64,000 bases of DNA from Desulfosediminicola flagellatus. Lineage in GTDB: Bacteria > Desulfobacterota > Desulfobulbia > Desulfobulbales > Desulfocapsaceae. This document shows positions 5,215-22,960 of the stretch, one piece after another. Below the pieces are notes generated by a model, which was not told the DNA's origin, searched no databases, and saw nothing but the letters and a program-made list of their open reading frames with translations. How positions within the stretch are numbered: position 1 is the stretch's first letter; each line of letters opens with the position of its first letter. Made by a program: the position numbers and the translations under genes. The stretch covers positions 3,805,501 through 3,869,500 of the forward strand of contig NZ_CP050698.1 in NCBI RefSeq assembly GCF_005116655.2. Direction: 5' to 3'.

Positions 5215-5460
5215 TTAGCCACCGGCAATGGCTGGAAACAAAATCAAAACATCACCATTCGTTAGAACGGCATCGCTTTTTACGATTTTCTCATTAAGAG
5301 ATATTGTACGGACCTTATCAACAGGCATCCCCAGTTGTAGAACCAACTGCTCTATTGTCGCATCTTCCTGCATCACAATATCACATGTGGGCTTATCTGT
5401 TGCGTAGGGTTTATATACTGCTAATGAAGCGAAAAGTTTAACAGAAATCGTGATAGTCAT
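5215..5460 (-). CDS. MoaD/ThiS-family small sulfur-carrier protein
   Basis: An 81-residue ubiquitin-fold protein from the ATG at 5460. It shows the family pattern: an initial strand ITISVKLFASL, a central DATIEQLVLQLGMP, and NGDVLILFPAIAGG with a C-terminal Gly-Gly. That Gly-Gly is the residue pair which, in MoaD and ThiS, is adenylated and thiocarboxylated to deliver sulfur for molybdopterin or thiamine. Small MoaD-like genes are often found beside aldehyde:ferredoxin oxidoreductase genes, as here (the oxidoreductase ends 96 bp upstream), suggesting a role in its pterin cofactor. An in-frame ATG at 5502 or TTG at 5511 would add an N-terminal tail, but no start has a strong ribosome binding site. 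It is probably the last gene of the rhamnose operon. Confidence 0.82.
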   Translation of the reverse strand: MTITISVKLFASLAVYKPYATDKPTCDIVMQEDATIEQLVLQLGMPVDKVRTISLNEKIVKSDAVLTNGDVLILFPAIAGG

Positions 5461-5489
5461 ATGTGATTTATGGAGCTTGCGATCAACTA

Positions 5490-5539
5490 TTGAAGATGAC
5501 ATGTACTTCAAATTGTGTGTGAAAAAATGTCATCTTCAA
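5490..5539. repeat. 13-bp perfect inverted repeat between the AOR and MoaD-like genes
   Basis: Arms TTGAAGATGACAT (5490-5502) and ATGTCATCTTCAA (5527-5539) are perfectly complementary around a 24-base loop. On the minus-strand transcript this would form a stem just after the oxidoreductase stop; its 3' arm contains the alternative ATG at 5502 of the MoaD-like gene. It could protect the upstream mRNA, tune translation of the downstream gene, or bind a protein as DNA. Confidence 0.5.
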
Positions 5540-5556
5540 AGGCTGTGTTATCTGTT

Positions 5557-7398
5557 TTAGAATACACCGAGTGAGTCTACTGTATCCTGCTTAGGAACTC
5601 CATTCTGATCCCAGCCCCGCAGATCGTAATATCGATCCAGTGCGGCATCAAAATCGTGAGGGTACTTCCCGGCACGACTACCTTCTTCGCTTGGTTTAAA
5701 GATAATTGCTGGCAGCGTATCGTCTTTACGATCAATACCGTACGTAACATTTACCAACCGTTGCAGAGTAAAGATTCTTTCCGCTGTCTGCAACATATCA
5801 TCCATCGTCCATTCCCAACCAGTGATGGCATTGACACTATCTAACAGAACGGTCATCGAATATCCGCCAAACAACATGAATTTGCAATGGCAAATGGCTT
5901 GAGTAAGGGTTCCGTAATCCTGATATTTGGCAGCAACAAACTCAGAATTTTCCATTTGAAAACGATCGACAATTTCGGTAACACCAGCTTCAGGCAGTAA
6001 AAAGCCTGCAGTGGCGACCTGTGGATTGCCGCGCTCGTGATGGGGACCTACACTTCCAGTTGCATAATTCAAGGCAAGCGAGAAATATGCACGAGGATCA
6101 TGGGCTGGCAAATCCAATCCTTTTACGTGCGGCGCCAGCTCCAACGCCTTGTCACCAAGCTGCTTTGCAGCGGGAACAATTCCATCTGCAAACAGTTCGC
6201 CAAAGCCGGGTTTTCTATTACCAAGATCATGGATCAAAGCGATCATGTTCTCTTTGTCACCCCACTTAAGCTCTACCCCACCGATATCTGCCGGCTTGAT
6301 ATAACCGTTTTCCAGACAATCCATAGTGAATGCGAGGAATGAACCCATAGAAATACAATCAACGCCGTATCTGTTACAGAGGTCGTTCATATGGGACAGG
6401 GCTTTGACATCATCCATCAGACAACTGTTACCCAGCATTCCCAGAGATTCATATTCAGGCCCCGGGCCCTTCATCTTGTATGCTTCTGGTTCAGATATTT
6501 CAATGTCACGATGACAGCCAACTACGCAGTACGCGCAGCCATGGGGCTTTGCATTAAGTGTATCTGTATAATTGGGAGAGCCAAGCTTCTCTGCACCTTC
6601 AGGCCAATGTGCTTCACGCCAGTTCTTGGTTGGGGTGTCACCGTCCGCATCACAGCCAACCTCAACAAATGGTGTACCATGCAATCTCAACCAGTCTTTG
6701 GTGTTTTCGTGAACAGTTTTCCCTATATTCTTGTTGATCCCATTGAGTTTTTCCTGATCATGAACAGGGACATTCTGGCTGCCTTTGGTGACAACGGCTT
6801 TCAGGTTTTTGGAGCCCATTACCGCTCCGAGACCGCACCTTCCTGCAAAGCTGTGCTTGTCAACAACGATACAGGCAATAGCAACCGTATTTTCACCAGC
6901 CTGACCAATGGTGCATATACTGGCTTTTTCAAGTCCACTATCCTCTAGAATCTGATCTGAAGAATCAAAGGCATCCTGTCCCCAGTACTTTGCTGCATCA
7001 CGAATTTCTATCGTGTTGTCGTGAATGAGTAGATATGACGGTGTGGCTGCTTTTCCCTGAATGATCAGTGCATCATAGCCGCTACGCTTTAAAGCAACTC
7101 CCCAACCGGCCCCAGCTGCACTTTCACCAAATATCCCGGTAACGGGTGATTTGGCAACAACGGTAAATTTTGCTGCCCCAGTTTGTCTGGCTGCCTGCAA
7201 AGGTCCTGTGGAGAAAATTAACCGATTTTCATCATCAAGCGCACCCACTTCCGGGCCAACTTCATCATAAAGTACTTTGGCTCCATAACCACCACCACCT
7301 AAGTAACGCTTCCATATTTCTTCTGGTACACGTTCTTCAGTAATCGTTCCAGATGTTAAATCAACGCGTAATACCTTTTCCCAAAAACCATTTCCCAT
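5557..7398 (-). CDS. Aldehyde:ferredoxin oxidoreductase family protein
   Basis: Tungsten (or molybdenum) bis-pterin enzyme that oxidises aldehydes to acids and reduces ferredoxin. The start at 7398 is fixed by AGGAG eight bases upstream and gives 613 residues, the usual family size. The N-terminal pterin-binding domain shows LRVDLTSGTITEERVPEEIW, YLGGGGYGAKVL and LIFSTGPL. The [4Fe-4S] cysteines are visible as CAYCVVGC and the later cysteine(s) in QAICHCKFMLFGG. The family also includes enzymes with other substrates, so the aldehyde is not set by sequence. Its position, 41 bp after the rhamnose mutarotase gene and on the same strand as the whole rhamnose operon, points to L-lactaldehyde, the product of rhamnulose-1-phosphate aldolase. 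A MoaD-like gene follows. Confidence 0.93.
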   Translation of the reverse strand: MGNGFWEKVLRVDLTSGTITEERVPEEIWKRYLGGGGYGAKVLYDEVGPEVGALDDENRLIFSTGPLQAARQTGAAKFTVVAKSPVTGIFGESAAGAGWGVALKRSGYDALIIQGKAATPSYLLIHDNTIEIRDAAKYWGQDAFDSSDQILEDSGLEKASICTIGQAGENTVAIACIVVDKHSFAGRCGLGAVMGSKNLKAVVTKGSQNVPVHDQEKLNGINKNIGKTVHENTKDWLRLHGTPFVEVGCDADGDTPTKNWREAHWPEGAEKLGSPNYTDTLNAKPHGCAYCVVGCHRDIEISEPEAYKMKGPGPEYESLGMLGNSCLMDDVKALSHMNDLCNRYGVDCISMGSFLAFTMDCLENGYIKPADIGGVELKWGDKENMIALIHDLGNRKPGFGELFADGIVPAAKQLGDKALELAPHVKGLDLPAHDPRAYFSLALNYATGSVGPHHERGNPQVATAGFLLPEAGVTEIVDRFQMENSEFVAAKYQDYGTLTQAICHCKFMLFGGYSMTVLLDSVNAITGWEWTMDDMLQTAERIFTLQRLVNVTYGIDRKDDTLPAIIFKPSEEGSRAGKYPHDFDAALDRYYDLRGWDQNGVPKQDTVDSLGVF

Positions 7399-7439: not shown

Positions 7440-7754
7440 TCAATCCATATGAAAAACTTGCGTGAGTGATCGAGATACCGGACTGTTATCCTCATTTGTC
7501 TTCATGATTGGAGCCATGTACTCCCACCATCTGCGCATTATTTCATTATCTGGTAATGAATCCATCGCATGGTTGCTCGTCCGTTTCAACACTGCGAAAA
7601 GGATATTCGTTTCCTCATCAAGATAAATGGTGTAGTCGCTTATGCCTGCATCTTTGAGCAGACCGGTAAGTTCCGGCCAGATTGTTTCATGCCGGAGCTT
7701 GTATTCGTGCTTTTGACCAGGGTTAAGTTGCATTGCAAAGGCTATTTTTTCCAT
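7440..7754 (-). CDS. rhaM: L-rhamnose mutarotase
   Basis: Interconverts alpha- and beta-L-rhamnose so that the isomerase receives its preferred anomer. From the ATG at 7754, preceded by AAGGGG, it is 104 residues, the normal family length. Features seen are AFAMQLNPGQKHEYKLRHE near the N terminus (a catalytic histidine lies in this segment in the family), the central ISDYTIYLDEETNILFAVLK, and MRRWWEYMAPIM near the end. A GTG at 7763 would overlap the ribosome binding site and is less likely. The gene follows the permease stop by two bases, and the equivalent gene in rhizobial rhamnose operons (rhaU) also follows rhaQ. Confidence 0.95.
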   Translation of the reverse strand: MEKIAFAMQLNPGQKHEYKLRHETIWPELTGLLKDAGISDYTIYLDEETNILFAVLKRTSNHAMDSLPDNEIMRRWWEYMAPIMKTNEDNSPVSRSLTQVFHMD

Positions 7755-7756
7755 TT

Positions 7757-8761
7757 CTAGCACCCCTTTTGCGTAAAAAACTTACCAAACAGTATTGGTA
7801 GAACCAGTGAAGCAACCAGAAGGACGCCAGTGAAAATCGACATGATAATTCCTGGAATATTTATAAGCTGCATACCGAACTGAACCATGCCAATCAAGAA
7901 CACAGCGAGAATCACACCTGGAATTTTTCCACTCCCTCCAAAAATACTGACACCACCAAGGATGGCGATTGTAATCACCTCAAGCTCCCAGCTACCGGCC
8001 ATATTCGGCCTGGCGGTAGATATCCGTGAAACCAGAAACACCGCTGCCATGGCGGACATGAAGCCATTCAGGGTAAGCAGAGCCAAACGATAATTGTTTA
8101 CCTTGATACCACTGTATCGTGCAGTCACAGGGTTGTTACCGATTGCATAGAGGCGGCGTCCAAAAACAGTATGGTGCAGGAAATACCACGCCACTGCGGC
8201 GAGTAGTATGAACGTAAGAAACTGAGCAGGAACGAGATCAGAAAAGAAATATGTTTGGCCAATAGCCTCAAAACTTTTAGGAAAATCGGTATAGGCCTTA
8301 TCCCCTAAGATGATAAAGGCTATACCTCTGTATAGAGACATGGTGCCGATAGTGACGATAATAGATGGCAGTTCAAGTTTGGTGACCAGCAAGCCATTGA
8401 CAGCTCCCGCTAGAGTTCCGGTTGCTAAACCAGTAGCAACGATAGCCCATGTATCGAGACCATTGGCTGCAGCGAACCCCATCATCACACCGGATAAGGC
8501 AATAATTGAAGCTACAGAAATGTCAATCTCTCTGCCAATAATGACAAGGGTCATACTTAAAACGATAATTGCCTTTTCTGAAAAGTTCTGGGTACTGTCG
8601 GCAAGATTATATACATCAAGAAAGTATGGGGACAATCCACTGTTTACGCAAACTACTATTATTAGCAATAAGAGCAACAACGCCTCACGCGAGCGCAACC
8701 TATCGGTAAATTGCCGGGGAAGCCGGTCAGGGATCATGTAATCTTTTTTGGATGTTTGCAT
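7757..8761 (-). CDS. rhaQ: Rhamnose ABC transporter permease RhaQ-like
   Basis: Membrane subunit of a carbohydrate-uptake-2 (ribose/rhamnose type) ABC importer. The 334-residue protein has a cytoplasmic N-terminal tail and about eight to ten helices, with the family stretches GREIDISVASIIALSGVMMG, PSIIVTIGTMSLYRGIAFII, GRRLYAIGNNPVTARYSGI and ITIAILGGVSIFGGSGKIPG. It is the second permease gene in the order SBP-ATPase-permease-permease-mutarotase, matching rhaSTPQU of Rhizobium. It starts 15 bp after the preceding permease and ends two bases before rhaM, so the genes are translated from one message. Confidence 0.9.
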   Translation of the reverse strand: MQTSKKDYMIPDRLPRQFTDRLRSREALLLLLLIIVVCVNSGLSPYFLDVYNLADSTQNFSEKAIIVLSMTLVIIGREIDISVASIIALSGVMMGFAAANGLDTWAIVATGLATGTLAGAVNGLLVTKLELPSIIVTIGTMSLYRGIAFIILGDKAYTDFPKSFEAIGQTYFFSDLVPAQFLTFILLAAVAWYFLHHTVFGRRLYAIGNNPVTARYSGIKVNNYRLALLTLNGFMSAMAAVFLVSRISTARPNMAGSWELEVITIAILGGVSIFGGSGKIPGVILAVFLIGMVQFGMQLINIPGIIMSIFTGVLLVASLVLPILFGKFFTQKGC

Positions 8762-8776
8762 TGTTACTTTACTCCT

Positions 8777-9754
8777 TTAGTGAACCCTGAGAATCTGCAT
8801 TCCTTTTTGCTTTCGACCACGTGAATTCACGATAACCGCAGCAAGGATAGCTGTACCTGAAACCGCCATTTGCCAGAAAGGTGAAATACCCATAACCGGC
8901 AGAGCATTTTGAAGGACCCCAAGAAACAGTGCCCCAAGGACAGCCCCAAACACGGTACCCGTACCACCGGCAATTCCTACACCGCCAATTACACAGGCAG
9001 CTACCGTCAATAGCTCAAATCCCAAAGCGATTTCAGTATAGGCGATGGCAAAGCGGGCCACCCACAAATAGCCACAGAGGCCAGCCAAAGCTCCAGTTAT
9101 CGCGTATACCGCAAACAACCTTCTTTTGGTGTTAATACCTACATAGTCAGTAGCCGCAGGATTACCTCCAATGGCATAGAGTTCCCTGCCGAAACGTGTA
9201 TGATGCATAACAATCACACCCAGCACTGATATTATGATGCCAATTGCAGCAAGATTGGTCAGACCGGCAAAGCGATCTAGAGGGAAAGCTGTGAAAGATG
9301 CTGGCATTTCTTGAGAATTAACCCATTGCCCGCCAGAGAGTACAAAGACCATGCCTCTGTAGATAGTCATAGCACCTAGCGACACAACAATTGCCGGAAT
9401 ACCAAGCAAAGCAATAAACACACCGTTCAGCATGCCAAGAAGCAATCCTGAGAGCACTGCACAAGCGATAATCAGAGCAAGGTTCGTGTCTGGCCAGTGC
9501 ATGCCTATAAGTGCTGCAATCATACCGGTCAGCGCAATGTTGGCAGCTACTGTCAGATCAATCCCCCTGGTGAGTATGACCATCATCTGAGCCGACGCCA
9601 TGATCATGAGAATAGCGCTATCGGTTAAAACCGAGTCCCACGTCTCAAGTGATAAGAATGATGGCGAGGCAATCCCAACAGCAATGGAAAAGAGGGCAGT
9701 AAAAAGGACGAGCTGCCCCTCTCGGGAACGTAATATCCTTTTAAGATAATTCAT
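8777..9754 (-). CDS. rhaP: Rhamnose ABC transporter permease RhaP-like
   Basis: Membrane subunit of the same importer, 325 residues from the ATG at 9754, which has GGAGGAG at ideal spacing. Longer in-frame extension to 9826 would overlap the ATPase gene and is not needed. Conserved stretches include MASAQMMVILTRGIDLTVAA, GIPAIVVSLGAMTIYRGMVF, FGRELYAIGGNPAATDYVGI and VAACVIGGVGIAGGTGTVFG. It pairs with the RhaQ-like permease to form the transmembrane channel, with the double-domain ATPase as motor. The gene starts 13 bp after the ATPase stop. Confidence 0.9.
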   Translation of the reverse strand: MNYLKRILRSREGQLVLFTALFSIAVGIASPSFLSLETWDSVLTDSAILMIMASAQMMVILTRGIDLTVAANIALTGMIAALIGMHWPDTNLALIIACAVLSGLLLGMLNGVFIALLGIPAIVVSLGAMTIYRGMVFVLSGGQWVNSQEMPASFTAFPLDRFAGLTNLAAIGIIISVLGVIVMHHTRFGRELYAIGGNPAATDYVGINTKRRLFAVYAITGALAGLCGYLWVARFAIAYTEIALGFELLTVAACVIGGVGIAGGTGTVFGAVLGALFLGVLQNALPVMGISPFWQMAVSGTAILAAVIVNSRGRKQKGMQILRVH

Positions 9755-9767
9755 GGTCTCTCCTCCA

Positions 9768-11279
9768 CTATTTGAGTCCGGTGGCCAGGGCGACCACTTG
9801 CTCTTGATTGGTTTCCTTTGCCACAAGGGTTGCTCGGATCAGACCTTCTCGCATAACCACAATCCGGTCTGACAGCCCCATAACTTCAGGAAGATCAGAG
9901 GAGACCATTATGACAGACAATCCTGACTCAACAAGTTCGGCAATGAAATTGTGCAGCATAGCCTTGGCTCCCACATCAATTCCCTTCGTGGGCTCATCGA
10001 GAATGATGATTCGGGGCTCAGAGCCGAGCCATTTGCCAATAACTACCTTTTGCTGGTTTCCTCCAGAAAGTTCGCCGACAAGTTGCGCAAGACTATGGGC
10101 TTTAAGCTTAAGGCGTGACGCATAACGGCGGGCAAATGAATTTTCTTTTTCAGGGTTAAGTCGAAGACCACCTGAAATTTCGGGAAGGGAGGTCAAGGTA
10201 ATGTTATCTCGAACGGACATGGCCAGGATTGCTCCACTTTGCTGACGATCTTCAGGAACATATGCCACCCCTTTTGAAATGGCATCTTCAGCTGTTTTAG
10301 GATAAAAATCCTCGCCATCAAGAGTTATGTTTCCCGACGATGGTCGAGTCAGACCAAAGATAGCATGCATCAGTTCCGATCTACCTGAACCTACAAGGCC
10401 ATAGAAGCCGAGGACTTCACCTTTCCTGAGATCAAAGGAGATATCTTTGAATTCTGTAGGATGGCAAAGATTGTTTACAGATAGCAATGGTTCACCTGTC
10501 ACAGTAGTCCGGGAGCGATATTCGTTCTCCACAGGGCGACCAGCCATCATGTGCACGAGTTCATCCTCGTTAACACCTGCAATTTCTCCTTCGCCGACAA
10601 AAGCGCCGTCTCGAAAAACAACAAACGTGTCAGAAATTGAGAAGATGTCATCAAAACGATGGGAGATAAACAGAATTCCAGTGCCCTCGTCGCGAAGCTT
10701 ACGTACGATCAGGAATAGTTCATCAACTTCTTTCTGGGAAAGAGCCGCAGTGGGCTCATCCATAATAAGGATACGCGCGTCATGGGAAAGAGCTTTGGCG
10801 ACTTCTACCAGATGCTTTTGAGCTACACTCAAGTCTTTAAGTGGTGTCTGTGGTGTGAAATCAACAATATCAAGCCGTTTCAGCAAGTCTCCTGTTTCGG
10901 AGTGCATGCGTTTCCAGTCGAGAAGGCCATTGTTCTTAACAACCTGATGGCCCATGAAGATATTCTCTGTAACCGAGAGTTCGCTGAACATGATCGTTTC
11001 CTGGTGAATAGCAGCAATGCCATCACCCCATGCTTCCTGAGCACTGTGGTAGGAAACCTGTTGACCGTTTCTCAGGATTTTTCCGGAGGTGGGTTGATAG
11101 ACGCCGGTCAGGATCTTCACTAAGGTCGATTTACCTGCACCGTTTTCTCCTAAAAGCGCCAGCACTTCGCCAGGATTAACTCGAAGCTGCACCCCATCAA
11201 GGGCGCGGACTCCAGGGAATTCCTTGGTAATATTCCGGACTTCTAGAAGCGGCGTGGTTTGCGTTCGATCTGTACTCAT
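9768..11279 (-). CDS. rhaT: Rhamnose ABC transporter ATPase RhaT-like (two ABC domains)
   Basis: Sugar-importer ATPase of the RbsA/XylG type, 503 residues from the ATG at 11279 (AGGGAG upstream). The first domain has Walker A GENGAGKSTLVKILTG, a modified signature LSVAQKHLVEVAKAL and Walker B ILIMDEPTAAL. The second has a degenerate Walker A (GLVGSGRSELMHAIFG, no lysine), a standard signature LSGGNQQKVVIGKWL and Walker B IIILDEPTKGID. One full and one degenerate site is normal for this family. The symbol follows the rhizobial naming, where RhaT is the ATPase; E. coli RhaT is an unrelated symporter. It is preceded by the binding-protein gene and followed by both permeases. Confidence 0.92.
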   Translation of the reverse strand: MSTDRTQTTPLLEVRNITKEFPGVRALDGVQLRVNPGEVLALLGENGAGKSTLVKILTGVYQPTSGKILRNGQQVSYHSAQEAWGDGIAAIHQETIMFSELSVTENIFMGHQVVKNNGLLDWKRMHSETGDLLKRLDIVDFTPQTPLKDLSVAQKHLVEVAKALSHDARILIMDEPTAALSQKEVDELFLIVRKLRDEGTGILFISHRFDDIFSISDTFVVFRDGAFVGEGEIAGVNEDELVHMMAGRPVENEYRSRTTVTGEPLLSVNNLCHPTEFKDISFDLRKGEVLGFYGLVGSGRSELMHAIFGLTRPSSGNITLDGEDFYPKTAEDAISKGVAYVPEDRQQSGAILAMSVRDNITLTSLPEISGGLRLNPEKENSFARRYASRLKLKAHSLAQLVGELSGGNQQKVVIGKWLGSEPRIIILDEPTKGIDVGAKAMLHNFIAELVESGLSVIMVSSDLPEVMGLSDRIVVMREGLIRATLVAKETNQEQVVALATGLK

Positions 11280-11388
11280 GTCGCAACTCCCTGATGCTTC
11301 TACGAGGATGTATTTCTTGCCTGAAAATTTCCATGAGCATTTTGAGTTACAAATGCTCATGGATTGGTTGAGTAATGAGAAATGCTAA

Positions 11389-12390
11389 CTAGAAAACTTC
11401 AGACCATTCATCGATATTTTCAGCATTGAAAACAAATGGAGCGCCCATGATCATCAAGCCATTGTCTCTCACAGTGATTTCACCCATCCTGCCCGCTTCA
11501 ACGTTCTCGTCCTTCTTGCCTCTCAGCTTTTCCTCGATAATAGCTTTCATGATGTAAACAGAACTGTACCCAAGATCTGAGGGGTTCCAGAGAGCGAAGT
11601 TTTTAACCACATCCTTTTTGACATAACCGGCAACCTCAGAAGGGAGTCCAAGACCAGTTACAAAAACTGTTCCGGTTTTTCCCTCATCAATGACAGCTTT
11701 TGCAGACGCAGGGAAGCCAACAGAGGTCGGTGCTTCAATACCTTTGAGTTCAGGGAATTTGCGTATAAGTGCTTGAGCTTCGCGGTAGCTCTTGTCTGTC
11801 TGGTCATCACCGTACGTTACAGCTACCAGTTTCATGTCTTTGTATTTTGGATCAGTTTTCAGCGCTTCTTCCATGAATCCGATCCATTCATTCTGGTTAG
11901 TTGCCTGGGAAGATGCACTGACGATGGCAAATTCGCCGGTATAATCCATGGCCTGCCCCATGAGTTCGACCTGCTGGGTGCCAATGAATTTGGAATCAGA
12001 CGGCGCCAGGTGTACGATACGACCATCTTCTGCAATACCGGAGTCAAAAGACATTACAGGAATGCCGCGTTTAATAGCTTTTTTGGTGATGGTCACCAGA
12101 GAATCAGGGTCATTGGCTGAGATAATGATGCCATCAACCTTTTGGGCAATAAGTGACCGGATAATCTCGATTTGTCCTTCTGCTGTTGGTGTCGTTGGAC
12201 CTGTATAGATGACTTCGACTCCACCGAGTTCTTTCGCTGCTTCCTGGGCACCACGATTGGCAGCCTCAAAAAAGCCGTTACCAAGGTTTTTTACGATAAG
12301 AGCGATTTTCATTTCTTTTGCCATAACAGGCGAGACAAAGCCCAGAACAGCAAAGAGCAGCATCACGGAAATCATTTTTCTGTAAATCAT
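11389..12390 (-). CDS. rhaS: Rhamnose ABC transporter substrate-binding protein RhaS-like
   Basis: Periplasmic sugar-binding protein of the Peripla_BP_4 type, 333 residues from the ATG at 12390, which has CGGAGGAG just upstream. A Sec signal peptide is clear: basic MIYRK, hydrophobic MISVMLLFAVLGFVSP, then cleavage near VMA-KE. The mature protein begins MKIALIVKNLGNGFFEAANR and has the typical EIIRSLIAQKVDGIIISAND and AKAVIDEGKTGTVFVTGLG. It delivers rhamnose to RhaPQ. The symbol follows the rhizobial naming; E. coli RhaS is an unrelated regulator. A hairpin lies in the 89-bp gap before it. Confidence 0.92.
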   Translation of the reverse strand: MIYRKMISVMLLFAVLGFVSPVMAKEMKIALIVKNLGNGFFEAANRGAQEAAKELGGVEVIYTGPTTPTAEGQIEIIRSLIAQKVDGIIISANDPDSLVTITKKAIKRGIPVMSFDSGIAEDGRIVHLAPSDSKFIGTQQVELMGQAMDYTGEFAIVSASSQATNQNEWIGFMEEALKTDPKYKDMKLVAVTYGDDQTDKSYREAQALIRKFPELKGIEAPTSVGFPASAKAVIDEGKTGTVFVTGLGLPSEVAGYVKKDVVKNFALWNPSDLGYSSVYIMKAIIEEKLRGKKDENVEAGRMGEITVRDNGLMIMGAPFVFNAENIDEWSEVF

Positions 12391-12417
12391 GGGTTCTCCT
12401 CCGAAAAACAGTTGTGA

Positions 12418-12438
12418 ACCAGGTTTCCCGTACCTGGT
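12418..12438. repeat. Intercistronic hairpin before the binding-protein gene
   Basis: ACCAGGT and ACCTGGT form a 7-bp perfect inverted repeat with a 7-base loop in the gap between rhaD and rhaS, upstream of rhaS on the minus-strand message. Hairpins in such gaps often stabilise the mRNA of abundant binding proteins; that role is inferred here. Confidence 0.4.
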
Positions 12439-12479
12439 ACAGTAAATTCCCCACCACCATAAAGCGGGGATGGTATCGT

Positions 12480-13295
12480 TCAATCAAGCACACCCGTTTG
12501 CGGGGTCACATTGAAGGTCTTGGCAAGGGCTTTAAGTTGTTCAGTGGAGATAGCTTGTTGTTTACCTCCGGCAGCCATAACCTTCAGCAACATCTCTGCT
12601 GCTTTTTCAGCAGTTTCAATCAGGCCAAAAACCTGATCCATATTTTTACCGGCTCCAAAAATTCCATGGTGTGCCCAGAGAACTAAATGGTGCTTTTCCA
12701 TAAGACGTGCAGTCTCATGGCCGATATCAAGCTGCCCAGGCAGCATCCAGTCTAAAATTCCTATTCCATCCGGAAACAGTACCAGGCACTCACTCATCAT
12801 TTCCCACAATTCCCGGGTAACCGTCGCCATATCAAGAGGCAGCACAAAGGAAAGGGCGATGAGGTTAGTGGTATGGGTATGCAGGACAACCGTATCCTGC
12901 CCCCCACTTGCTTTTTTACGAGCAACATGTGACAAAAGATGTGAAGGCAGTTCGCTGGTGGGGCGGCCCCCAGTGGAATATCCCCAAACTACCGAGTATG
13001 TTTCCCCGTTTGGGTTTATGTGAACAATGCCAAGACTTTCTAACGGCGAACTCGCTATGTTACGAAAAAAAACACCTGTCCCGGTGACCAGAAAATAATC
13101 CCCCGCAAGATCCGGCATAGCAAAGGGCAATGTAACTTCCTGCCCAACACAGAGACTTTTTTCAAAAGGAAGCATTTCTTTTGGAGTTATCCGAATAGAA
13201 ATATTTCCTCCGTTTGCCTCTCCCCAACCTTTGGCATAAATTTGCTCTGAAACTCTTGTCATGTCCGTCAGAAACGGCGCTTTTAAAATATCCAT
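12480..13295 (-). CDS. rhaD: Rhamnulose-1-phosphate aldolase
   Basis: Zinc class II aldolase that cleaves L-rhamnulose 1-phosphate to dihydroxyacetone phosphate and L-lactaldehyde. The 271-residue protein lines up along its length with E. coli RhaD (274): KGWGEANGGNISIRI, VTGTGVFFRNI, LGIVHINPNGE, RPTSELPSHLLSH, VVLHTHTTNLIALSFVL (metal-binding histidines), ECLVLFPDGIGILDWMLPG and LVLWAHHGIFGAG. It sits between rhaA (8 bp upstream) and the transporter genes. The pathway continues through glycolysis for DHAP and, probably, through the operon's aldehyde oxidoreductase for lactaldehyde. Confidence 0.96.
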   Translation of the reverse strand: MDILKAPFLTDMTRVSEQIYAKGWGEANGGNISIRITPKEMLPFEKSLCVGQEVTLPFAMPDLAGDYFLVTGTGVFFRNIASSPLESLGIVHINPNGETYSVVWGYSTGGRPTSELPSHLLSHVARKKASGGQDTVVLHTHTTNLIALSFVLPLDMATVTRELWEMMSECLVLFPDGIGILDWMLPGQLDIGHETARLMEKHHLVLWAHHGIFGAGKNMDQVFGLIETAEKAAEMLLKVMAAGGKQQAISTEQLKALAKTFNVTPQTGVLD

Positions 13296-13303
13296 TGTGT
13301 ATC

Positions 13304-14575
13304 CTATTTGCGGGCGTCTTCCGTCCGGGTTTCATAATTCCTGACAGCTTCAAGCCAGGCGCGTCCCACAGGAACTCCGCGTGAAAGGCAGTAGTAGTCC
13401 CATACCGCACCAAAGGGCATGGTCTTCAGTTCTTCAAGCAGCACTAATCTGTCGGTGTAGTTAAACGTCTGTTCTGCCTTGACCAGTTGTTCAGTGTTTT
13501 CCAACAGGCCAAACAGCAATGCTTTTTGCGTATTTCGTGTGCCGATTACCCAAGCAGCTATCCGGTTAATACTGGCATCAAAAAAGTCCAGACCAATATG
13601 GATTCGATCCATTTGGCCGGAGCGAACAATCTCATGAGCAATAGCCACAAGTTCATCATCAAAAATGACAACGTGGTCGCTATCCCATCGCAGCGGACGG
13701 CTGACATGAAGCAGCAGTCCCTCCAGAAAAAGAAGTGAGGATGAAATTTTATTGGATATGACCTCAGTAGGATGAAAATGACCGGCATCGAGACAAAGCA
13801 GCGTGTTTCGGGTAGTGGCATATCCCATATAAAATTCGTGGGAACCAATGACACAGGCTTCAGATCCAATGCCAAAAAGTTTGCTCTCAACAGCATCCAG
13901 ATTATGTTCTTTCGAGATTGCTTCTAAGAGAATGGTATCAAGAGATTCCAACAGGAGCTGACGCGGTGTCATCCGATCTACAGGATTATCTTTAAAGCCA
14001 TCAGCAATCCATATATTGGTCACACAAGGAGTACCAAGCTTCTTACCGAAAGCTGCACCGATACGTCGGCTCGCTTTGCAGTGTTCAATCCAATAATCCC
14101 GTATTCCCTTGTCTGGGTGACTTAAGGTAAAGCCATCGGCACTGTTAGGATGAGAAAAGAGCGTTGGGTTGAAATCGAGACCCATTTTCTTTTCGTGTGC
14201 CCAGTCCATCCAGGCAGTAAAATGCTCAGGGCCGAGATCTGTACGATCAACAGCCTTCCCTCCCGTTTCGGCATAGATAGCATGCAAATTGAGACGATGG
14301 GTTCCTGGGATAAGGGATAATGCCATATCCAGATCTAAACGCAGCTCATCAGCATTTCGAGCTTTACCAGGATAAGCTCCGGTGACCATTATTCCGCCAG
14401 TGAGGTGTTCGTCAGGAGCTTCAAAGCCACCCACATCATCACCCTGCCAGCAATGCAAAGAAATTGGCAAACTATCCAGAACGGACATAGCCTCTTCTGT
14501 ATTTATACCCCACTCGCCATAAGCCTCCTGGGCCATGCGGTAAGAATCAGTGACTGCTTTTTCGTTCTGTTTCAT
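13304..14575 (-). CDS. rhaA: L-rhamnose isomerase
   Basis: Converts L-rhamnose to L-rhamnulose, a metal-dependent TIM-barrel enzyme. The 423-residue protein matches the family size (E. coli 419). Motifs seen are [13 protein letters not shown] near the start, [28 protein letters not shown], the metal-site region [36 protein letters not shown] and [20 protein letters not shown]. The ATG at 14575 has AAGGA just upstream. It follows the regulator-kinase fusion by 20 bp and precedes rhaD by 8 bp. Confidence 0.96.
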
Positions 14576-14595: not shown

Positions 14596-16863
14596 CTAGG
14601 AGGTTGGTGAATTCAGCTCTAGAAAACGTTCATACGCCTGGTCGATTTCCGGTGTGATTTCCGGCTCAAATCTTCTGGGAGGAAATGACTGACCAATAAT
14701 CCTCCGGGCCTCGTCCACATCAGAAATGGCTCCGGTTGCCAGGAATTGGGCAAGTGCATTGCCAAGAGCTGTAGCTTCTATCGGGCCGGCAAGTACAGGT
14801 ATGCCGATTGCCGAAGCAGTAAGTTGATTGAGGAGGTCTGCTTGTGAGCCACCGCCTACTACATGAAGTATATTTATGGTTCTGCCAGTTAATGTGCTGA
14901 GTTGCTTAATGATTCTACGATAGAGTAAACTCAGGCTGTCATATGCACATCTCGCTAAGGCACCGGGAGTTTCTGGAATCGGTTGGTTAGTTTCCTGGCA
15001 AAACATTTGAATTTCATTGACCATATTAACGGGGCTGAAAAAACGCATATCACTCGGGTCAATAAGAGAAGAATATCCGGATTCGGCTGTAGCCATTTCT
15101 GCTAAATCAGCAAATGAATAGCGACCTCCAAGAACTCGAACAATTTCCTGAATAATCCACAGGCCATTAATGTTTTTAAGGAAACGATAGGTGTTGCCAT
15201 AGCCTCCCTCGTTGGTCCAGTTGGCAGCCAAAGCTTCCGAACCGTTAATCGGGGTCTTTAACTCCACCCCAAGTAACGACCAGGTCCCGGAACTCAAAAA
15301 AGCCCAGTCATCACCAGACGCAGGAACAGCCAAAATAGCCGAAGCAGTGTCGTGTGAGGCGGGGGCAATTACTCGCAGCCCGGACAGTCCTGTTTTTTTG
15401 CAAAGTTCAGGCAGAAGGGTGCCAATTTCTGTTCCCGGCTCAACAGGTACTTGCAGTGCTGTTTCTGGCAAAGCAAGTGTGTCGAGCAGATCGGTATCCC
15501 AGAGATTGTCTTTTAAATTCAACATCTGGCTGGTTGAAGCCATTGTCGTTTCGATACTCGCCACGCCAGAGAGTAAAAAATGAAAATAATCAGCGGTAAA
15601 AAGAAGTTGATGGGTTTTGCTCAGCAATTCTGGTTGAGCAAGGGTTTGCGCGTAGAGCTGATAGAGGGTGTTGAACTCTAGAAACTGAATACCCGTCTTG
15701 TTGTATACGTGTTTTCTGGAAATTTGTTCCTGAGTGAAACGTTCGATCATTTCACGTGTACGTTCGTCACGGTAAGCTACAGGACGTTCGAGAAGTGCCC
15801 CCTTCTCATCTAAGAGAACGTAATCAACGCCCCAGGCATCTACACCAATACTCTCGTACTTTTTGCCACTTTTCCCTGCTACACGGAGTCCTTTAATAAC
15901 CTCAGAAAAGAGACGTTCATGCTGCCAGCAAAGACTGCCACCCTCTCTTTTTGGACTATTTTCCATGCGACAAAGTTCATGCATCGTGAGTTTGTCATTT
16001 CGCAATTCTACATCAATAAGGCGACCACTGGAGGCCCCGAAATCAAGAGCCAGACATCTTGAGATGTCTTTTTTAGCGGTTTTTGTCGGATATAATTCCG
16101 CAATAACCACTTTTACACCTGCCTCTTCGAGCATTTTTCGAGACGCCTCATCTATGTTCTCATCAGTAACGACAGCAAAAACTTTACTTAATGGACACAT
16201 GATGATGCTTTTTCTGGTAGTGAATTTGCTACTGTCGGCAAGAATGACAAGCTTTTCACTTTGACTAATGAGTTTCTGCTCAGCATGCACCAGCAGCGGA
16301 TCACCTTCCATTATCCCCCAGGGAGAAATCCCCTGACAGCCGGTAAAGAAAATATCACCAAAAAAATTAGGGGCTTCGCTTTCAAGATGTCCAAGAATGA
16401 TCATGTGATTGTGGAAGACTTCTCCACCAGATACGAAGCATCTGTTGCTGGTTTTCCTAGAGACATACTCAACTATTGGCAGTGAGTTGGTAAGAATGGT
16501 CAAGCCAGTAACGGGAAGGTTCTCAGCCACATGCCATGTGGTTGTACCACCGTTAATAATTATACTTTCATTGCCGGAAAGAAGTGTAGCCGCTGCTCTG
16601 CCTATTGCTTTTTTTGCGTCAGCATTTCGTAATTCTTCCGATGAAAAAGGTGCGGTAACAAGTCGAGATTCCTCTACCGGTTGATCTGCTGATGCGATTC
16701 CACCTCGTACTTTCCTGAGTTGTTTCGTAGAGGCAAGATAGTCAATATCTCTTCTGAGAGTAGATTCCGAAGTGTCAATTACTTCTAACAGCTCCTCTAG
16801 AGAAATAGCCTCTTTCTTTTTCAGTTGCTTGATGATGGCGATATGTCGTTGATGTCGTAGCAT
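14596..16863 (-). CDS. Fused DeoR-family regulator and rhamnulokinase
   Basis: A single 755-codon frame holds two whole proteins. Residues 1-57 are a DeoR winged-helix domain ([14 protein letters not shown], recognition-helix segment [14 protein letters not shown]), and about 75-258 the DeoR effector domain with [12 protein letters not shown] and ILADSSKF. Residues 268-755 are a full FGGY kinase of RhaB type and length, with [43 protein letters not shown] and [20 protein letters not shown]. No second start with a ribosome binding site marks the junction. The kinase phosphorylates L-rhamnulose; the DeoR part likely controls this operon, which it heads. In rhizobia RhaR (DeoR) and RhaK are separate proteins. 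ACAGGA precedes the ATG at 16863. Confidence 0.93.
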
Positions 16864-16886
16864 AGTATCCTGTTAACCTTTTCCCA

Positions 16887-16943
16887 ATGTCATTGTCAAT
16901 CATTAAATTTCATTTAATGTCATATTATTTCATTTTATGTCAG
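16887..16943. promoter_or_regulatory. Phased repeats upstream of the rhamnose operon, likely regulator sites
   Basis: The hexamer ATGTCA occurs at 16887, 16917 and 16937, spaced 30 and 20 bp apart, that is on the same DNA face. The last two belong to longer near-identical units TTTCATTTAATGTCAT (16908-16923) and TTTCATTTTATGTCAG (16928-16943). On the minus strand, a TTGACA lies among them. DeoR proteins commonly bind such spaced direct repeats, so these are candidate operators for the regulator-kinase fusion starting 24 bp away. Confidence 0.6.
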
Positions 16944-18076: not shown

Positions 18077-19600
18077 TTATGATTTCATCATCGTTCTGGC
18101 CGCAGTCATTCCCATAACCATGCAGTCAGGAATTGAGCAACTGCCCAATCGGCTTACTCCGTGCATTCCGCCAGTAACCTCACCACCTGCATACAGTCCA
18201 GGGATCGGTTTCCAGGTATTTGAATCAATAACATGGGCATCTACGTCAATTTGGGCACCACCTTGACAATAATGAACCTTAGGCCAGTTTCTCACGACAA
18301 CAAAAGGAGCTTGAAGGTATTTTCCCTCAGCTTTGGCCATTGGCTTGCCAAACTGCTCGTCAACGCCCGACTTTACATAACCGTTATATTCTTCAACCTG
18401 AGCTTTGAGCGGCTCCAGCGGAATCTTATAGTGAGCAGCAACTTCCTCAATAGAGTCAAATTTCCAGCCGACACCGTACTTGAGCACCTTTTTCAATGTT
18501 GGATGTTCTTTGGCATGCTCGTAACTGGTGATAGTAATTGGTGGGAGAGGGTTGCCCTTGTCGTCACGACAGGCAAGCTGGGCATCAGAACGTGTTTTCC
18601 TGTCTGCAATTTCGTTCATGAACCGCTTACCTGTTTTAATATAAACGGAAATTGAATGGGCGAAGTTATATATTGAATAATTAGAAACATAGCCAAACCC
18701 ATCCTCATCCGGTGAGGCCCACGGTCCTGTTTGTATATGCGCCATGTGAACTGGGACGGCACCGACACGGAACATTTCAAGTAATGCTTCACCTGTTGCA
18801 CTGGGTGGATTGGTGGAAGGGACTTCTTCAGTGAGAGTTGGATCTTGGGCTTTGCGGAGCTCAACATTTCTTGCAAAACCACCCGTTGCAATTAAAACTC
18901 CTCTCTGGGCACGGACATTTACTTCAGTGCCCTCAACCCCGCGGTCATAATAGTGTCCCGTCAGTATTTTTGCCCCAATAACAGTTCCTTTCTCATCAAA
19001 AACAAGACTGTCAAACTTGGCCCGGGAAACTAATTTAACGCCCAGCTTTTTACATTGGTTTACAAGGGGCTGGATTATTCCAGCTCCGCACGCAACTGTC
19101 GTCTGGTAAGTACGTGGAACTGAGTGGCCACCCAATTGCTGTAGATATGGGAAATATTCACTTCCAGCGTCAAGCGTCATCTGGAGCGCTTCATTTGCGT
19201 GTTTGGCAACATGCAGCAAGAGATCCTCATACGCCACACCACGGCCAGCTTTCATCTGGTCAGCAGTCATCGTTTCAGGTGAATCTTTAACTCCTTTTTC
19301 CTTCTGTAGCGGTGAATTTGGTACCGCAAACAGCCCACCGTTAAAGGTGGAGTTCCCGCCAAAATATGGCATCTTGTCATACACGACGACATCTTTTGCT
19401 CCAAGCTTTTTTGCCTCAATAGCTGCTGCGAGTCCTGTAAAACCTGAGCCGATTATTACAACTTCGTGCTCTTCTCCCCACTTAACATTGCTTTCACTGG
19501 CCACAGCGTTTAACGCCGGAGCAGTCAGAGCGGCTGCACCAGCCATACCCATACCGGCGAGAAACTTACGACGATCTGCCTGATATCCTTTTTTTGCCAT
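18077..19600 (-). CDS. Tat-exported flavoprotein reductase, flavocytochrome c flavin-subunit family
   Basis: A 507-residue FAD protein of the fumarate reductase/urocanate reductase family. A twin-arginine signal (ADRRKFLAGMGMAGAAALTA) sends it to the periplasm. Then follow the dinucleotide-binding EVVIIGSGFTGLAAAIEAK and NSTFNGGLFAVPNS. The substrate-side segment KTGKRFMNEIADRKTRSDAQ keeps arginines where fumarate reductases have their proton-donating arginine, and GEVTGGMHGVSRLGSCSI keeps the second active-site arginine. The segment HHTMGG of Shewanella fumarate reductase is replaced by HYCQGG, so the substrate is probably not fumarate. Heme sites are absent and are supplied by the cytochrome gene 22 bp downstream. 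GGGAG precedes the ATG. Confidence 0.88.
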   Translation of the reverse strand: MAKKGYQADRRKFLAGMGMAGAAALTAPALNAVASESNVKWGEEHEVVIIGSGFTGLAAAIEAKKLGAKDVVVYDKMPYFGGNSTFNGGLFAVPNSPLQKEKGVKDSPETMTADQMKAGRGVAYEDLLLHVAKHANEALQMTLDAGSEYFPYLQQLGGHSVPRTYQTTVACGAGIIQPLVNQCKKLGVKLVSRAKFDSLVFDEKGTVIGAKILTGHYYDRGVEGTEVNVRAQRGVLIATGGFARNVELRKAQDPTLTEEVPSTNPPSATGEALLEMFRVGAVPVHMAHIQTGPWASPDEDGFGYVSNYSIYNFAHSISVYIKTGKRFMNEIADRKTRSDAQLACRDDKGNPLPPITITSYEHAKEHPTLKKVLKYGVGWKFDSIEEVAAHYKIPLEPLKAQVEEYNGYVKSGVDEQFGKPMAKAEGKYLQAPFVVVRNWPKVHYCQGGAQIDVDAHVIDSNTWKPIPGLYAGGEVTGGMHGVSRLGSCSIPDCMVMGMTAARTMMKS

Positions 19601-19750
19601 TTTAGAAGCTCCCTTTTAATATATTGGTCCTGTCTTGCTACTTTTCAGAAAAGGATTGCAACCTTTTCCTGAGAAATAACGTTATGCCTATCTGGAAGCA
19701 GCAGCATAGCTTGTAGTTGTGAGTTTTTGTAGGGGGAGAATCGGGTGTAT

Positions 19751-19774
19751 TTCGGGTATAATAGTATACCCGAA
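19751..19774. promoter_or_regulatory. Perfect dyad upstream of the exported flavoprotein gene
   Basis: TTCGGGTATA, a 4-base spacer and TATACCCGAA form a perfect 24-bp dyad, with a related half-site TCGGGTGTAT directly before it (19741-19750). It lies 150 bp ahead of the flavoprotein-cytochrome genes and just past the stop of the second flavoprotein gene. It is a good candidate binding site for the PAS-LuxR regulator encoded nearby. Confidence 0.6.
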
Positions 19775-19820
19775 GAGTATATGAAGAGAGTTGTGTTAAC
19801 GTTCGGTTATTGAATCACAA

Positions 19821-21236
19821 CTATACGTTCTCGTTTTCAGCGACAGCATTGACTCCTGCAATACGACCGAAAACAATACACTCAACGATAGAGTTGCTTC
19901 CCAAGCGACTGGCTCCATGTATTCCGCCTGTAACCTCCCCAGCTGCATAAAGACCTGGGATAGGAAGTCCTTCAGATACAGAGAGAACCTGAGCCTTTGA
20001 ATTTATTCGTATTCCTCCCATGCAATAGTGAACTTTGGGAAGAAGTCGGATGGAATAATACGGAGGGGTTGTTAGAGGCTTGAGATCTTTAGGTAGCGAT
20101 TTTTCAAATTCAGTATCACAGCCATGCCCCAGATACATGTTATAATTTCGAACGGTTTCAATCAAAGATGCCTCTGGAATCATATTGCTTTTTGCCAATT
20201 CTTCTATAGAATCAAACGCTTGAACGACGCCTCTTTTCAGGCATTTATCAAGAGTAGTCGCATACTTGACTCCTTGGGAATCCACGATGGCAACTGGTGC
20301 TCGATCCTTAAGAAGCATGGCATCTGTTCGCAATCTGCGATCAGACATTTCATTTACAAATCGCTTTCCTGTTTTGGCATCAACCATTATTCCGTATGGA
20401 AATCCTGCAAGAAGTGTAAAAAGAGAGCCGACCCCCCATCCTTTTTCGTCTAACGATGCCCAAGGACCTAGCTGAATCCAGCAAAGTTGGAGTGGTGTTG
20501 CACCAACTTCTAGTGCTGCAATGAGACCTTCAGCCGTAGCTCCTTTATGGTTTGTTGTGTCAATATTATTATTTAGCCGAGGATCTTGAATAAGCCGGAA
20601 TTTGACATCACTTCCGAACCCGCCCGTAGCAAGAACAACTGCTTTTTTTGCTCGTATGTGCTGAGTGATTCCGGATTGTTCATGGGGGAAGTGGTAATCA
20701 GATTGCACTTCTATCCCTTCAATCCGATCATTGGCCCCGGAAATCATCCTATTTAACCGGGTTTTAATTTTAATAGGAATTTCCAGCTGCCGACACTTAC
20801 TGAGCATCGGTTGAATTATCCCTGAACCTGAACCACTTTTCGTTGTGTATGTGCGAGGGACAGAATGTCCCCCGAGATGATTGAGGTTCTCTTTGTATTG
20901 AACAGCAAGGTTCTCAATAGACCAATGAAGTGCAGATAACGACTGATCTGCTACAACTTGAGCAAGTTCAGGATGGTTGAGGTTCATTCCAGCATTTAAC
21001 ATATCCTGATGCATGAGGTCAGGGCTATCAACAATCCCATCTCTTGTTTGAAGTGGAGAGCCTGCTACTGCAAATAAGCCGCCGCTTATAGCAGAATTAC
21101 CACCTGGAGTGCGCATTTTTTCAATCACAACAACATCTGCGCCTTTCTCTTTTGCTTCGATGGCAGCAGCAAGGCCAGCAAAGCCGGACCCTATGATGAC
21201 AACATCGTACTCTTCAGTCCATTTTTTGGTTCTCAC
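19821..21236 (-). CDS. Second flavoprotein of the fumarate reductase-like family, no export signal
   Basis: A 471-residue FAD protein starting at a GTG (21236) with AAGGAT nine bases upstream. It lacks a signal peptide and heme sites, so it should be cytoplasmic. The order of motifs matches the exported relative: EYDVVIIGSGFAGLAAAIEA, GGNSAISGGLFAVAGSP, KTGKRFVNEMSDRRLRTDAM, KVHYCMGGIRI and GEVTGGIHGASRLGSNSIVE. It is alike enough to be a duplicate, but its active-site segment HYCMGG differs slightly from HYCQGG, and it has no cytochrome beside it. It starts 38 bp after the PAS-LuxR regulator stop and is probably cotranscribed with it. Substrate unknown; a related cytoplasmic reductase or a sensor-linked enzyme are both possible. 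Confidence 0.85.
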   Translation of the reverse strand: MRTKKWTEEYDVVIIGSGFAGLAAAIEAKEKGADVVVIEKMRTPGGNSAISGGLFAVAGSPLQTRDGIVDSPDLMHQDMLNAGMNLNHPELAQVVADQSLSALHWSIENLAVQYKENLNHLGGHSVPRTYTTKSGSGSGIIQPMLSKCRQLEIPIKIKTRLNRMISGANDRIEGIEVQSDYHFPHEQSGITQHIRAKKAVVLATGGFGSDVKFRLIQDPRLNNNIDTTNHKGATAEGLIAALEVGATPLQLCWIQLGPWASLDEKGWGVGSLFTLLAGFPYGIMVDAKTGKRFVNEMSDRRLRTDAMLLKDRAPVAIVDSQGVKYATTLDKCLKRGVVQAFDSIEELAKSNMIPEASLIETVRNYNMYLGHGCDTEFEKSLPKDLKPLTTPPYYSIRLLPKVHYCMGGIRINSKAQVLSVSEGLPIPGLYAAGEVTGGIHGASRLGSNSIVECIVFGRIAGVNAVAENENV

Positions 21237-21274
21237 AGTGACGAAATCCTTAAATCCAGTGTATCTTTTTTTTG

Positions 21275-22960
21275 TTATTTGGAGTCAATGTTTTTTTCTG
21301 CAAGAAAAGCATAAAGATTGATATCCTGACCACGCAAACCGAGCTTTTTCCTGATATTTTTCCGATGAGACTGGATAGTTTCAAATGCTAGGTTCATAGT
21401 GTTACCAATCTCCTTACCGCTTAAACCTGCCTTGATGAATTGACATATGCGAAGCTCCGTTTTGCTCAGCTTCAATAAATTGCTATCCAGAGGACAATCA
21501 AAGCCTGTTGTCAGGGAAGTCAGCTGATCTTGAACAAGGGTTAAGTAACTTGAGCGGATATCTTCATCTTTCTCATTCGCAACTTTCGCTATTCCAGGCA
21601 AAATCGATGATCGGATGCGTGAAGAAATCCCGTATTCAACCTCTTTTCTCTGCTCTTCAATCGTTGCAAGTACATTACGTAATGTCACATTCATTTCTTC
21701 AGCATTCTGCCTTTGTCTAACCAGTCGTGTTTCTAATTCTTTCTGTTTGGAAATGTCCGAGACAATAATTGGCCAGAATTCTTGATCATCCAGGTCCATA
21801 AAAGCAATAGTTATCATACACGGAAACTGCCGACCATCTACATAGCTTCCCGCCAACTCTAAACTACGAATTTCTCCATCAGTGATTGTATCACGAGAAT
21901 GAGCCATCATCTTCAGGCCGCTTTCATCGGTCAACACTTGAAAAGAAGTGCCAACCAAGACCTCTAAAGGAATACCGAACATCTCACTTGCCATCATATT
22001 GGCTTCTACGACCTCTAGATCATTATCAAGAAGGAGTATGCCCTGCCCTACTGATTGAAAGATTGTGTCAATAATCACCTGTGATCTCGATAAATCACGG
22101 TTCTTTTCTACCACCCGATATTCCAAATCGTTCCGGTTGTCGACCATGTAAGTGATATCACTTAATATTAACAAAGCTCCTTCAGCAGGAGAGTCCATGC
22201 ATGATAAAGATTTTACCTGCAAGTTAAAATATTGGTTAACTCCTGAAAGTGGAAGAATGAATTCCTGATTCGTATCTGCCTGAGTATACGAAAACAATTG
22301 CTCGATATTACTGCAAGGAAGACCTAAAACTGTCCAACATGGACAATCAATAATTTTTTGACCTGAGAATCGGATTTTTGCTTCGGGATTAATCTCTGTG
22401 ATACAGCCTTTACCGTCAGTTATTATTACCAAATTGGAAGTAGAGTCAAAAATGCTCTTATATGTTGCTTTCTCTTTTGCCAGAATTTTACTACTGCGTT
22501 TTTCTTCTGAGGTAACATCGTGAGACTCTACAGTATGCCACGATTTTAAGACCTCAAGTTCGATGCAATCACCAATTTTGCCTAAAGCTCTTGATAGACT
22601 TCTTTTAGAAGTGTCGCTGGCTACAAGTTTGTCACTGCAATCGACTAAAAAAGACCATATTTTTTTAATGTTGTATATGAATTCGACTTGGCTGATGCCT
22701 TCGACGTTATAGGCGGCAGCAACCTTGGTAAAATTTGAGATTTCCTCAGAAAGGGCGTGGTTCCATACCTGGTAGTCGTCATTATAATCACGTGGAGTAA
22801 TTTTTTTGAGTCCATTGATTATCTGTAGAGTAGCTACGTTTAATCTTTGTCTGGAAATTAGACGTTTACTATCGTCCTCATAATCCTGATTATAGCATTC
22901 CCACGTATCCGATAGCGGTATAGATGAGTCCTCAAGTTGCTCTAGTAACCTCTCGATCAT
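21275..22960 (-). CDS. PAS-domain LuxR-type transcriptional regulator
   Basis: A 561-residue cytoplasmic regulator. The N-terminal ~170 residues are helical and unassigned. Two PAS-like domains follow: about 165-275 (KSIFDSTSNLVIITDGKGCI, EINPEAKIRFSGQKIIDCPC) and about 295-405 (IIDTIFQSVGQGILLLDNDL, ANMMASEMFGIPLEVLVGTS, WPIIVSDISKQKELE). A coiled-coil linker leads to a C-terminal LuxR helix-turn-helix (LSKTELRICQFIKAGLSGKE, then FETIQSHRKNIRKKLGL). The cysteines in DCPCWTVLGLPC might bind a metal or cluster. There is no receiver or kinase domain, so it likely senses a ligand or redox state directly. It is upstream of the flavoprotein genes and presumably controls them. Confidence 0.88.
   Translation of the reverse strand: MIERLLEQLEDSSIPLSDTWECYNQDYEDDSKRLISRQRLNVATLQIINGLKKITPRDYNDDYQVWNHALSEEISNFTKVAAAYNVEGISQVEFIYNIKKIWSFLVDCSDKLVASDTSKRSLSRALGKIGDCIELEVLKSWHTVESHDVTSEEKRSSKILAKEKATYKSIFDSTSNLVIITDGKGCITEINPEAKIRFSGQKIIDCPCWTVLGLPCSNIEQLFSYTQADTNQEFILPLSGVNQYFNLQVKSLSCMDSPAEGALLILSDITYMVDNRNDLEYRVVEKNRDLSRSQVIIDTIFQSVGQGILLLDNDLEVVEANMMASEMFGIPLEVLVGTSFQVLTDESGLKMMAHSRDTITDGEIRSLELAGSYVDGRQFPCMITIAFMDLDDQEFWPIIVSDISKQKELETRLVRQRQNAEEMNVTLRNVLATIEEQRKEVEYGISSRIRSSILPGIAKVANEKDEDIRSSYLTLVQDQLTSLTTGFDCPLDSNLLKLSKTELRICQFIKAGLSGKEIGNTMNLAFETIQSHRKNIRKKLGLRGQDINLYAFLAEKNIDSK

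Follow-up and report, generated by a model that had tools for sequence, protein, structure and literature searches.

An aldehyde oxidoreductase of the AOR family as the putative L-lactaldehyde oxidase of a rhamnose operon in the sulfate reducer Desulfosediminicola flagellatus

The rhamnose operon of D. flagellatus ends with a gene for an aldehyde oxidoreductase of the AOR family followed by a gene for a MoaD/ThiS-like sulfur carrier. On balance, the AOR seems to serve this operon mainly by oxidising L-lactaldehyde to L-lactate, with ferredoxin as electron acceptor, a reading favoured here with some reserve. It builds on gene content, gene order and its conservation, the conserved residues of the protein and the presence of dsrA and LUD-domain genes. 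The likelihoods given in the text to this reading and to its rivals overlap and are not exclusive shares. The window, that is, the whole stretch of DNA analysed, is 64 kb long (G000:C1:3805501-3869500) and belongs to a genome of 6.75 Mb in one contig.

Organisation of the rhamnose operon

The operon occupies the minus strand and runs from 16863 down to 5215. It begins with a DeoR-family regulator fused to a rhamnulokinase (14596-16863, 755 aa), in which the HTH_DeoR, DeoRC, FGGY_N and FGGY_C domains are recognised and which scores 553 bits with TIGR02627 (cut-off 528). Next come the L-rhamnose isomerase RhaA/RhaI (13304-14575; TIGR01748, 676 bits, cut-off 585) and the rhamnulose-1-phosphate aldolase RhaD, the source of L-lactaldehyde (12480-13295; NF002963, 347 bits, cut-off 170; with TIGR02624 it stays below the cut-off, at 352 against 401 bits). 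The transporter consists of the rhamnose-binding protein RhaS (11389-12483; TIGR02637, 413.6 bits, cut-off 342), the sugar ABC ATPase RhaT with two ABC_tran domains (9768-11360) and the permeases RhaP (8777-9826) and RhaQ (7757-8761), both assigned to PF02653; the real starts of RhaS and RhaP are probably internal. The L-rhamnose mutarotase RhaM (7440-7763; TIGR02625, 120.9 bits, cut-off 99.6) precedes the AOR gene (5557-7398), which starts with an ATG at 7398 behind a GGAG, and the MoaD/ThiS-like gene (5215-5460; alternative start TTG at 5511). Isomerase, kinase, aldolase, transporter and mutarotase are thus all of the rhamnose type, as in RhaABD-type operons.

All these genes, on a single strand and spaced by -59 to +96 nt (41 nt between RhaM and AOR, 96 nt between AOR and the MoaD-like gene), are presumably cotranscribed. 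The first-pass annotation had placed the AOR and MoaD/ThiS-like genes at the close of a rhamnose operon, and both gene order and domain scores confirm this; its coordinates were exact, since the MoaD-like gene ends at 5215 and the start codon of AOR is at 7398. It was also right that AldA and FucO have no gene here: no aldehyde dehydrogenase (ALDH) or iron-containing alcohol dehydrogenase (Fe-ADH) gene is found among the open reading frames of the operon.

A putative promoter and operator lie at 16864-16942 on the same strand, where a weak -35/-10 match (16893-16864) is preceded by two exact TGACANWAAATGAAA repeats (16908-16922 and 16928-16942); in the promoter scan, promoter-like sites were no more numerous than in shuffles. 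These two repeats before the first operon gene are the only exact matches in the 64 kb window, and no operator-like TGACANWAAATGAAA site precedes AOR. A relaxed form of the motif precedes both rha loci of the Desulfobulbaceae MAG SZUA-575 (G031) and is absent from the other loci compared. Since the motif was derived from the same sequences in which it was counted, this distribution is a description rather than an independent test.

Of the two rha loci of SZUA-575, the second (L066, G031:C22:1-3265) has the same start of regulator, kinase and isomerase, and its contig ends inside the isomerase gene. In both loci, regulator and kinase are two genes (260 and 502 aa) with a stop, a Shine-Dalgarno sequence and an ATG at their boundary. 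As the junction in the window is remodelled and not the product of a one-base shift, the DeoR-rhamnulokinase fusion seems to be genuine. Upstream of the window operon, on the same strand, 18077-22960 encodes two flavocytochrome c-type FAD proteins and a PAS-LuxR regulator.

The AOR protein and its MoaD-like partner

The AOR gene encodes a single-subunit protein of 613 aa, which the Pfam domains AFOR_N (238 bits, cut-off 29.8) and AFOR_C (365 bits, cut-off 27) together cover over its full length. Its closest solved structures are AORs, namely 9mqx (381 bits), 9g7j (344 bits) and 1aor of Pyrococcus furiosus (337 bits), with 8c0z, the Aromatoleum AOR, at 270 bits. In an alignment of four orthologs and a 46% identical relative (n=5), residues C288, C291, C295, C505, E317 and H454 are invariant, and they align with C288, C291, C295, C494, E313 and H448 of the P. 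furiosus enzyme. In AORs the four cysteines hold the 4Fe-4S cluster, and the Glu and His are catalytic. The window AOR thus shares with 1aor, 9g7j and 9mqx the full-length alignment, the CxxCxxxC...C ligands, the catalytic Glu/His and the single subunit. It differs from them in its distance (337-381 bits over ~600 residues), in its sugar-operon context and in having a residue other than Glu at the position of P. furiosus E332, which we take to be a ligand of the bridging iron between subunits. The metal of the window enzyme is probably tungsten. We know of no biochemically studied member of its clade.

Two other identities were considered and rejected. The GAPOR model NF040818 gives 27 bits against a cut-off of 1300; YdhV of Escherichia coli (NF007354, PRK09849), though the best NCBIfam match, gives 213 bits against 868 and represents a different subfamily.

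The AorABC(DE) system of Aromatoleum aromaticum has a catalytic subunit of the same family and, likewise, putative cofactor-maturation genes in the operon (PMC6365974). Unlike it, the operon described here lacks genes for AorA (Fe-S) and AorC (FAD): no AorA-like or AorC-like subunit gene was found near AOR among the window open reading frames or in the three orthologous loci. An NAD-linked complex of the AorABC type was rejected for these loci since its partner subunits are absent, and direct reduction of NAD by the window AOR is therefore not expected. With no FAD or extra Fe-S subunit encoded beside it, the window AOR is most naturally seen as a single-subunit enzyme linked to ferredoxin. 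For the Aromatoleum AOR, which oxidises a broad variety of aldehydes, ferredoxin has been suggested as the natural acceptor (PMC6365974).

The neighbouring MoaD/ThiS-like protein has the ubiquitin fold of sulfur carriers (PF02597, 33 bits, cut-off 22.5) and a C-terminal Gly-Gly; it reaches only 23 bits with the canonical MoaD equivalog TIGR01682 (cut-off 66). Its gene follows AOR in all four orthologous loci, and identity is far lower among the MoaD-like proteins (40-50%) than among the AORs (74-81%). The SZUA-575 protein (L028:11925-12164) ends in Ala-Gly rather than Gly-Gly. In G001, a genome of the same genus, a further AOR occurs with MoaD-like and ThiF/MoeB-like proteins (L037:5651-8524).

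The D. flagellatus genome holds seven AORs, and the operon AOR is 28-34% identical to the other six. One of these (L040, G000:C1:4074000-4092000) stands immediately before an ALDH gene, with an apparent trimethylamine-methyltransferase-like gene and a glycyl-radical-like enzyme as neighbours. A different AOR subgroup is clustered in two genera (L038 in G001, L039 in G019) with genes named by eye: lactate-racemase-like, altronate-dehydratase-like and hydroxyisobutyrate-dehydrogenase-like ones and organic-acid transporters; by its gene content, this looks like an uncharacterised acid-degradation cluster.

Distribution of the operon and of the AOR-MoaD pair

Only 3 of the 395 genomes sampled in the phylum encode rhamnose isomerase, as do 2 of the 258 in the order, namely the window genome and SZUA-575. 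The latter belongs to a different genus and, judged by DsrA identities, falls outside the three same-genus genomes; when the genome contigs were scanned once with the window AOR, it was the sole return. At its locus L028 the order RhaR-K-I-D-S-T-P-Q-M-AOR-MoaD is identical to that of the window; most of the proteins are 63-79% identical (AOR 77%), and past MoaD the two loci carry unrelated genes. The same order in two genera with different genes past MoaD argues strongly for real membership of the pair in the operon. A chance adjacency of AOR is unlikely because the genome has seven AORs and the order recurs in a second genus.

The survey of Desulfobacterota rhamnose operons proposed in the first-pass annotation gave a divided picture. 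Both operons within the order contain AOR, whereas in two Desulfobacterota outside it (G304 and G398), where RhaA, the kinase and the aldolase are present, no AOR is adjacent. The notion that the enzyme forms a subgroup tied to rhamnose did not hold: G001 and G003, both of the same genus as D. flagellatus, carry orthologous AOR-MoaD pairs (AOR 77% and 81% identical, respectively) and have no rhamnose isomerase. In G001 the pair lies between genes of histidine degradation and a response-regulator-like gene, and in G003 its neighbours are another AOR, a sigma-54 activator and a cobalamin adenosyltransferase-like gene (partly named by eye). In the AOR tree, the window protein is sister to that of G003, its closest ortholog; the placement of G001 and SZUA-575 is not settled by the tree. 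Since this closest ortholog occurs without RhaA, rhamnose is not the sole selective reason for the enzyme, and AOR, being retained in genomes that lack rhamnose isomerase, probably acts on more aldehydes than lactaldehyde alone.

These observations are shared by another explanation, namely that AOR is a broad-range scavenger of small aldehydes, serving detoxification and electron recovery, which is housed in the rha operon and serves several aldehyde supplies, with lactaldehyde as one of them. Besides the orthologs in G001 and G003, it draws on the next relative of the protein (G331, 46%), which adjoins glycyl-radical enzymes, one of them close to the trans-4-hydroxyproline dehydratase model, and on the Aromatoleum enzyme, whose range is broad and for whose type a primary role in detoxification has been proposed (PMC6365974). 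However, the position of AOR inside the rha operon was kept in two genera while the neighbours past MoaD changed, and a general capacity is already provided by six other AORs and several ALDHs. We regard this explanation as unlikely, though of appreciable weight. The distribution fits vertical inheritance of AOR within the family, combined with either a loss of the rhamnose genes from G001 and G003 or several separate recruitments. So AOR may be a broad small-aldehyde enzyme that the operon recruited, or one that outlasted the sugar genes where these were lost.

The differing flanks of the pair in D. flagellatus, G001 and G003, and past MoaD also in SZUA-575, could be taken to mean that AOR-MoaD inserted behind the rha operon as an unrelated mobile pair and has no functional tie to it. 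This is scarcely credible. The full operon including the pair is common to two genera at comparable divergence, and the GC content of the pair agrees with that of the remaining operon (45.7 vs 46.5%). Moreover, the AOR tree groups the window protein with that of the same-genus G003 and not with that of SZUA-575, so the pair has not simply moved between the two rha operons recently. Plasmid-borne AORs, among the matches listed, are at most 36% identical to the window AOR.

Other aldehydes and other sinks for lactaldehyde

The window also contains genes for ethanolamine ammonia-lyase, EutB and EutC, at 569-2804, downstream of TRAP transporter genes. They score over their cut-offs, no acetaldehyde dehydrogenase such as EutE stands beside them, and no ALDH gene lies between EutBC and AOR, so that AOR might be supposed to serve acetaldehyde formed from ethanolamine. 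This is very improbable, given that EutBC is on the opposite strand some 2.4 kb away, beyond a transporter gene and a segment in which no gene is recognisable, that it is not next to AOR in SZUA-575, G001 or G003, and that acetylating acetaldehyde dehydrogenase-like genes are present elsewhere in the genome.

A different possibility is that the bulk of the lactaldehyde is consumed by an Fe-ADH, which would reduce it to 1,2-propanediol, or by a general ALDH, which would oxidise it, with AOR as a minor side route. Six full-length and several CoA-acylating ALDHs were counted in the genome, along with nine Fe-ADHs and one weak match resembling dehydroquinate synthase. ALDHs and Fe-ADHs are often promiscuous, and a backup role for them is therefore possible. 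The anaerobic product in Escherichia coli and Salmonella is 1,2-propanediol (PMC3870299). Against this stand the lack of any such gene in the operon and the scores of the enzymes scanned: among the ALDHs scanned individually, a set without the ALDH-like genes L088 and L091, none passes the AldA model NF007497 (best 333 bits, cut-off 500), and none of the Fe-ADHs scanned passes the lactaldehyde reductase/FucO model TIGR02638 (best 418 bits, cut-off 523). For L099 and L101, no NCBIfam match was obtained at the threshold used. The first-pass annotation would have counted a rhamnose-induced lactaldehyde dehydrogenase elsewhere in the genome as evidence against AOR; no specialised enzyme emerged from the scan, and unspecialised ALDHs and Fe-ADHs could share the job. 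The sole microcompartment locus examined (L103, G000:C1:4525000-4544900, at 4.53-4.55 Mb) is of the choline trimethylamine-lyase type, with CutC at 1660 bits, and a rhamnose/propanediol microcompartment route was rejected for it. Taken as the main fate of lactaldehyde, the ALDH and Fe-ADH routes are distinctly unlikely.

Proposed pathway and comparison with known systems

In the preferred reading, with AOR as the lactaldehyde oxidase of the operon, L-rhamnose would be taken up by RhaSTPQ, epimerised by RhaM, isomerised by RhaA and phosphorylated by the kinase half of the fusion protein, and RhaD would cleave the product into DHAP and L-lactaldehyde. AOR would then convert L-lactaldehyde and water into L-lactate at a bis-pterin metal centre, probably containing tungsten; the two electrons released would travel via the one [4Fe-4S] cluster of the enzyme and reduce two ferredoxins. 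In AOR chemistry the aldehyde/acid couple lies well below ferredoxin, which makes this stoichiometry feasible. The MoaD-like protein may supply the dithiolene sulfur of the pterin cofactor. LUD-domain genes of the lactate utilisation type occur at several sites of the genome, and hence lactate from AOR could be used: LUD-type lactate dehydrogenases would oxidise it and the electrons would go to sulfate. That the organism is a sulfate reducer, as stated earlier from the window, is supported by a dsrA above the curated cut-off. A stricter version, a ferredoxin-reducing branch dedicated to deoxyhexose breakdown in these sulfate reducers, in which AOR is the only oxidant of L-lactaldehyde from rhamnose, each rhamnose yields reduced ferredoxin and lactate, and tungsten is required for growth on this sugar, is held tentatively and given slightly less than an even chance.

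The isomerase, kinase, aldolase, transport, mutarotase and L-lactaldehyde itself are common to the window and the classical pathway, represented by AldA/FucO in E. coli, RhaZ in Salmonella and RhaEW in Bacillus and Chloroflexus (PMC3870299). The difference lies in the last step, assigned here to a pterin/4Fe-4S AOR and not to an NAD-linked ALDH, a RhaW domain or an Fe-ADH. The lactaldehyde enzymes were described as the most variable downstream part of the pathway in the 2013 rhamnose survey, which lists AldA, RhaO/FucO, RhaEW (RhaW) and RhaZ; neither 'ferredoxin' nor 'Desulf' occurs in its text, and no ferredoxin-linked enzyme is given for this step (PMC3870299). A full-text literature search found no paper on an AOR acting on lactaldehyde, which is weak evidence as subscription papers are poorly covered; in a Moorella paper, the passages on rhamnose and on AOR are unrelated to each other. 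A ferredoxin-linked AOR route for rhamnose-derived lactaldehyde is absent from the rhamnose-pathway literature searched and would make a local variant of the known pathway, its putative substrate being deduced from the gene context.

If this reading is true, a ferredoxin-linked oxidase would conserve energy that is lost in the NAD-linked or reductive routes, and the use of a sugar would be tied to the supply of tungsten. Lactate, a favoured electron donor of sulfate reducers, would be fed from a sugar of plants and algae, and one of the many bacterial AORs without a physiological substrate would gain one.
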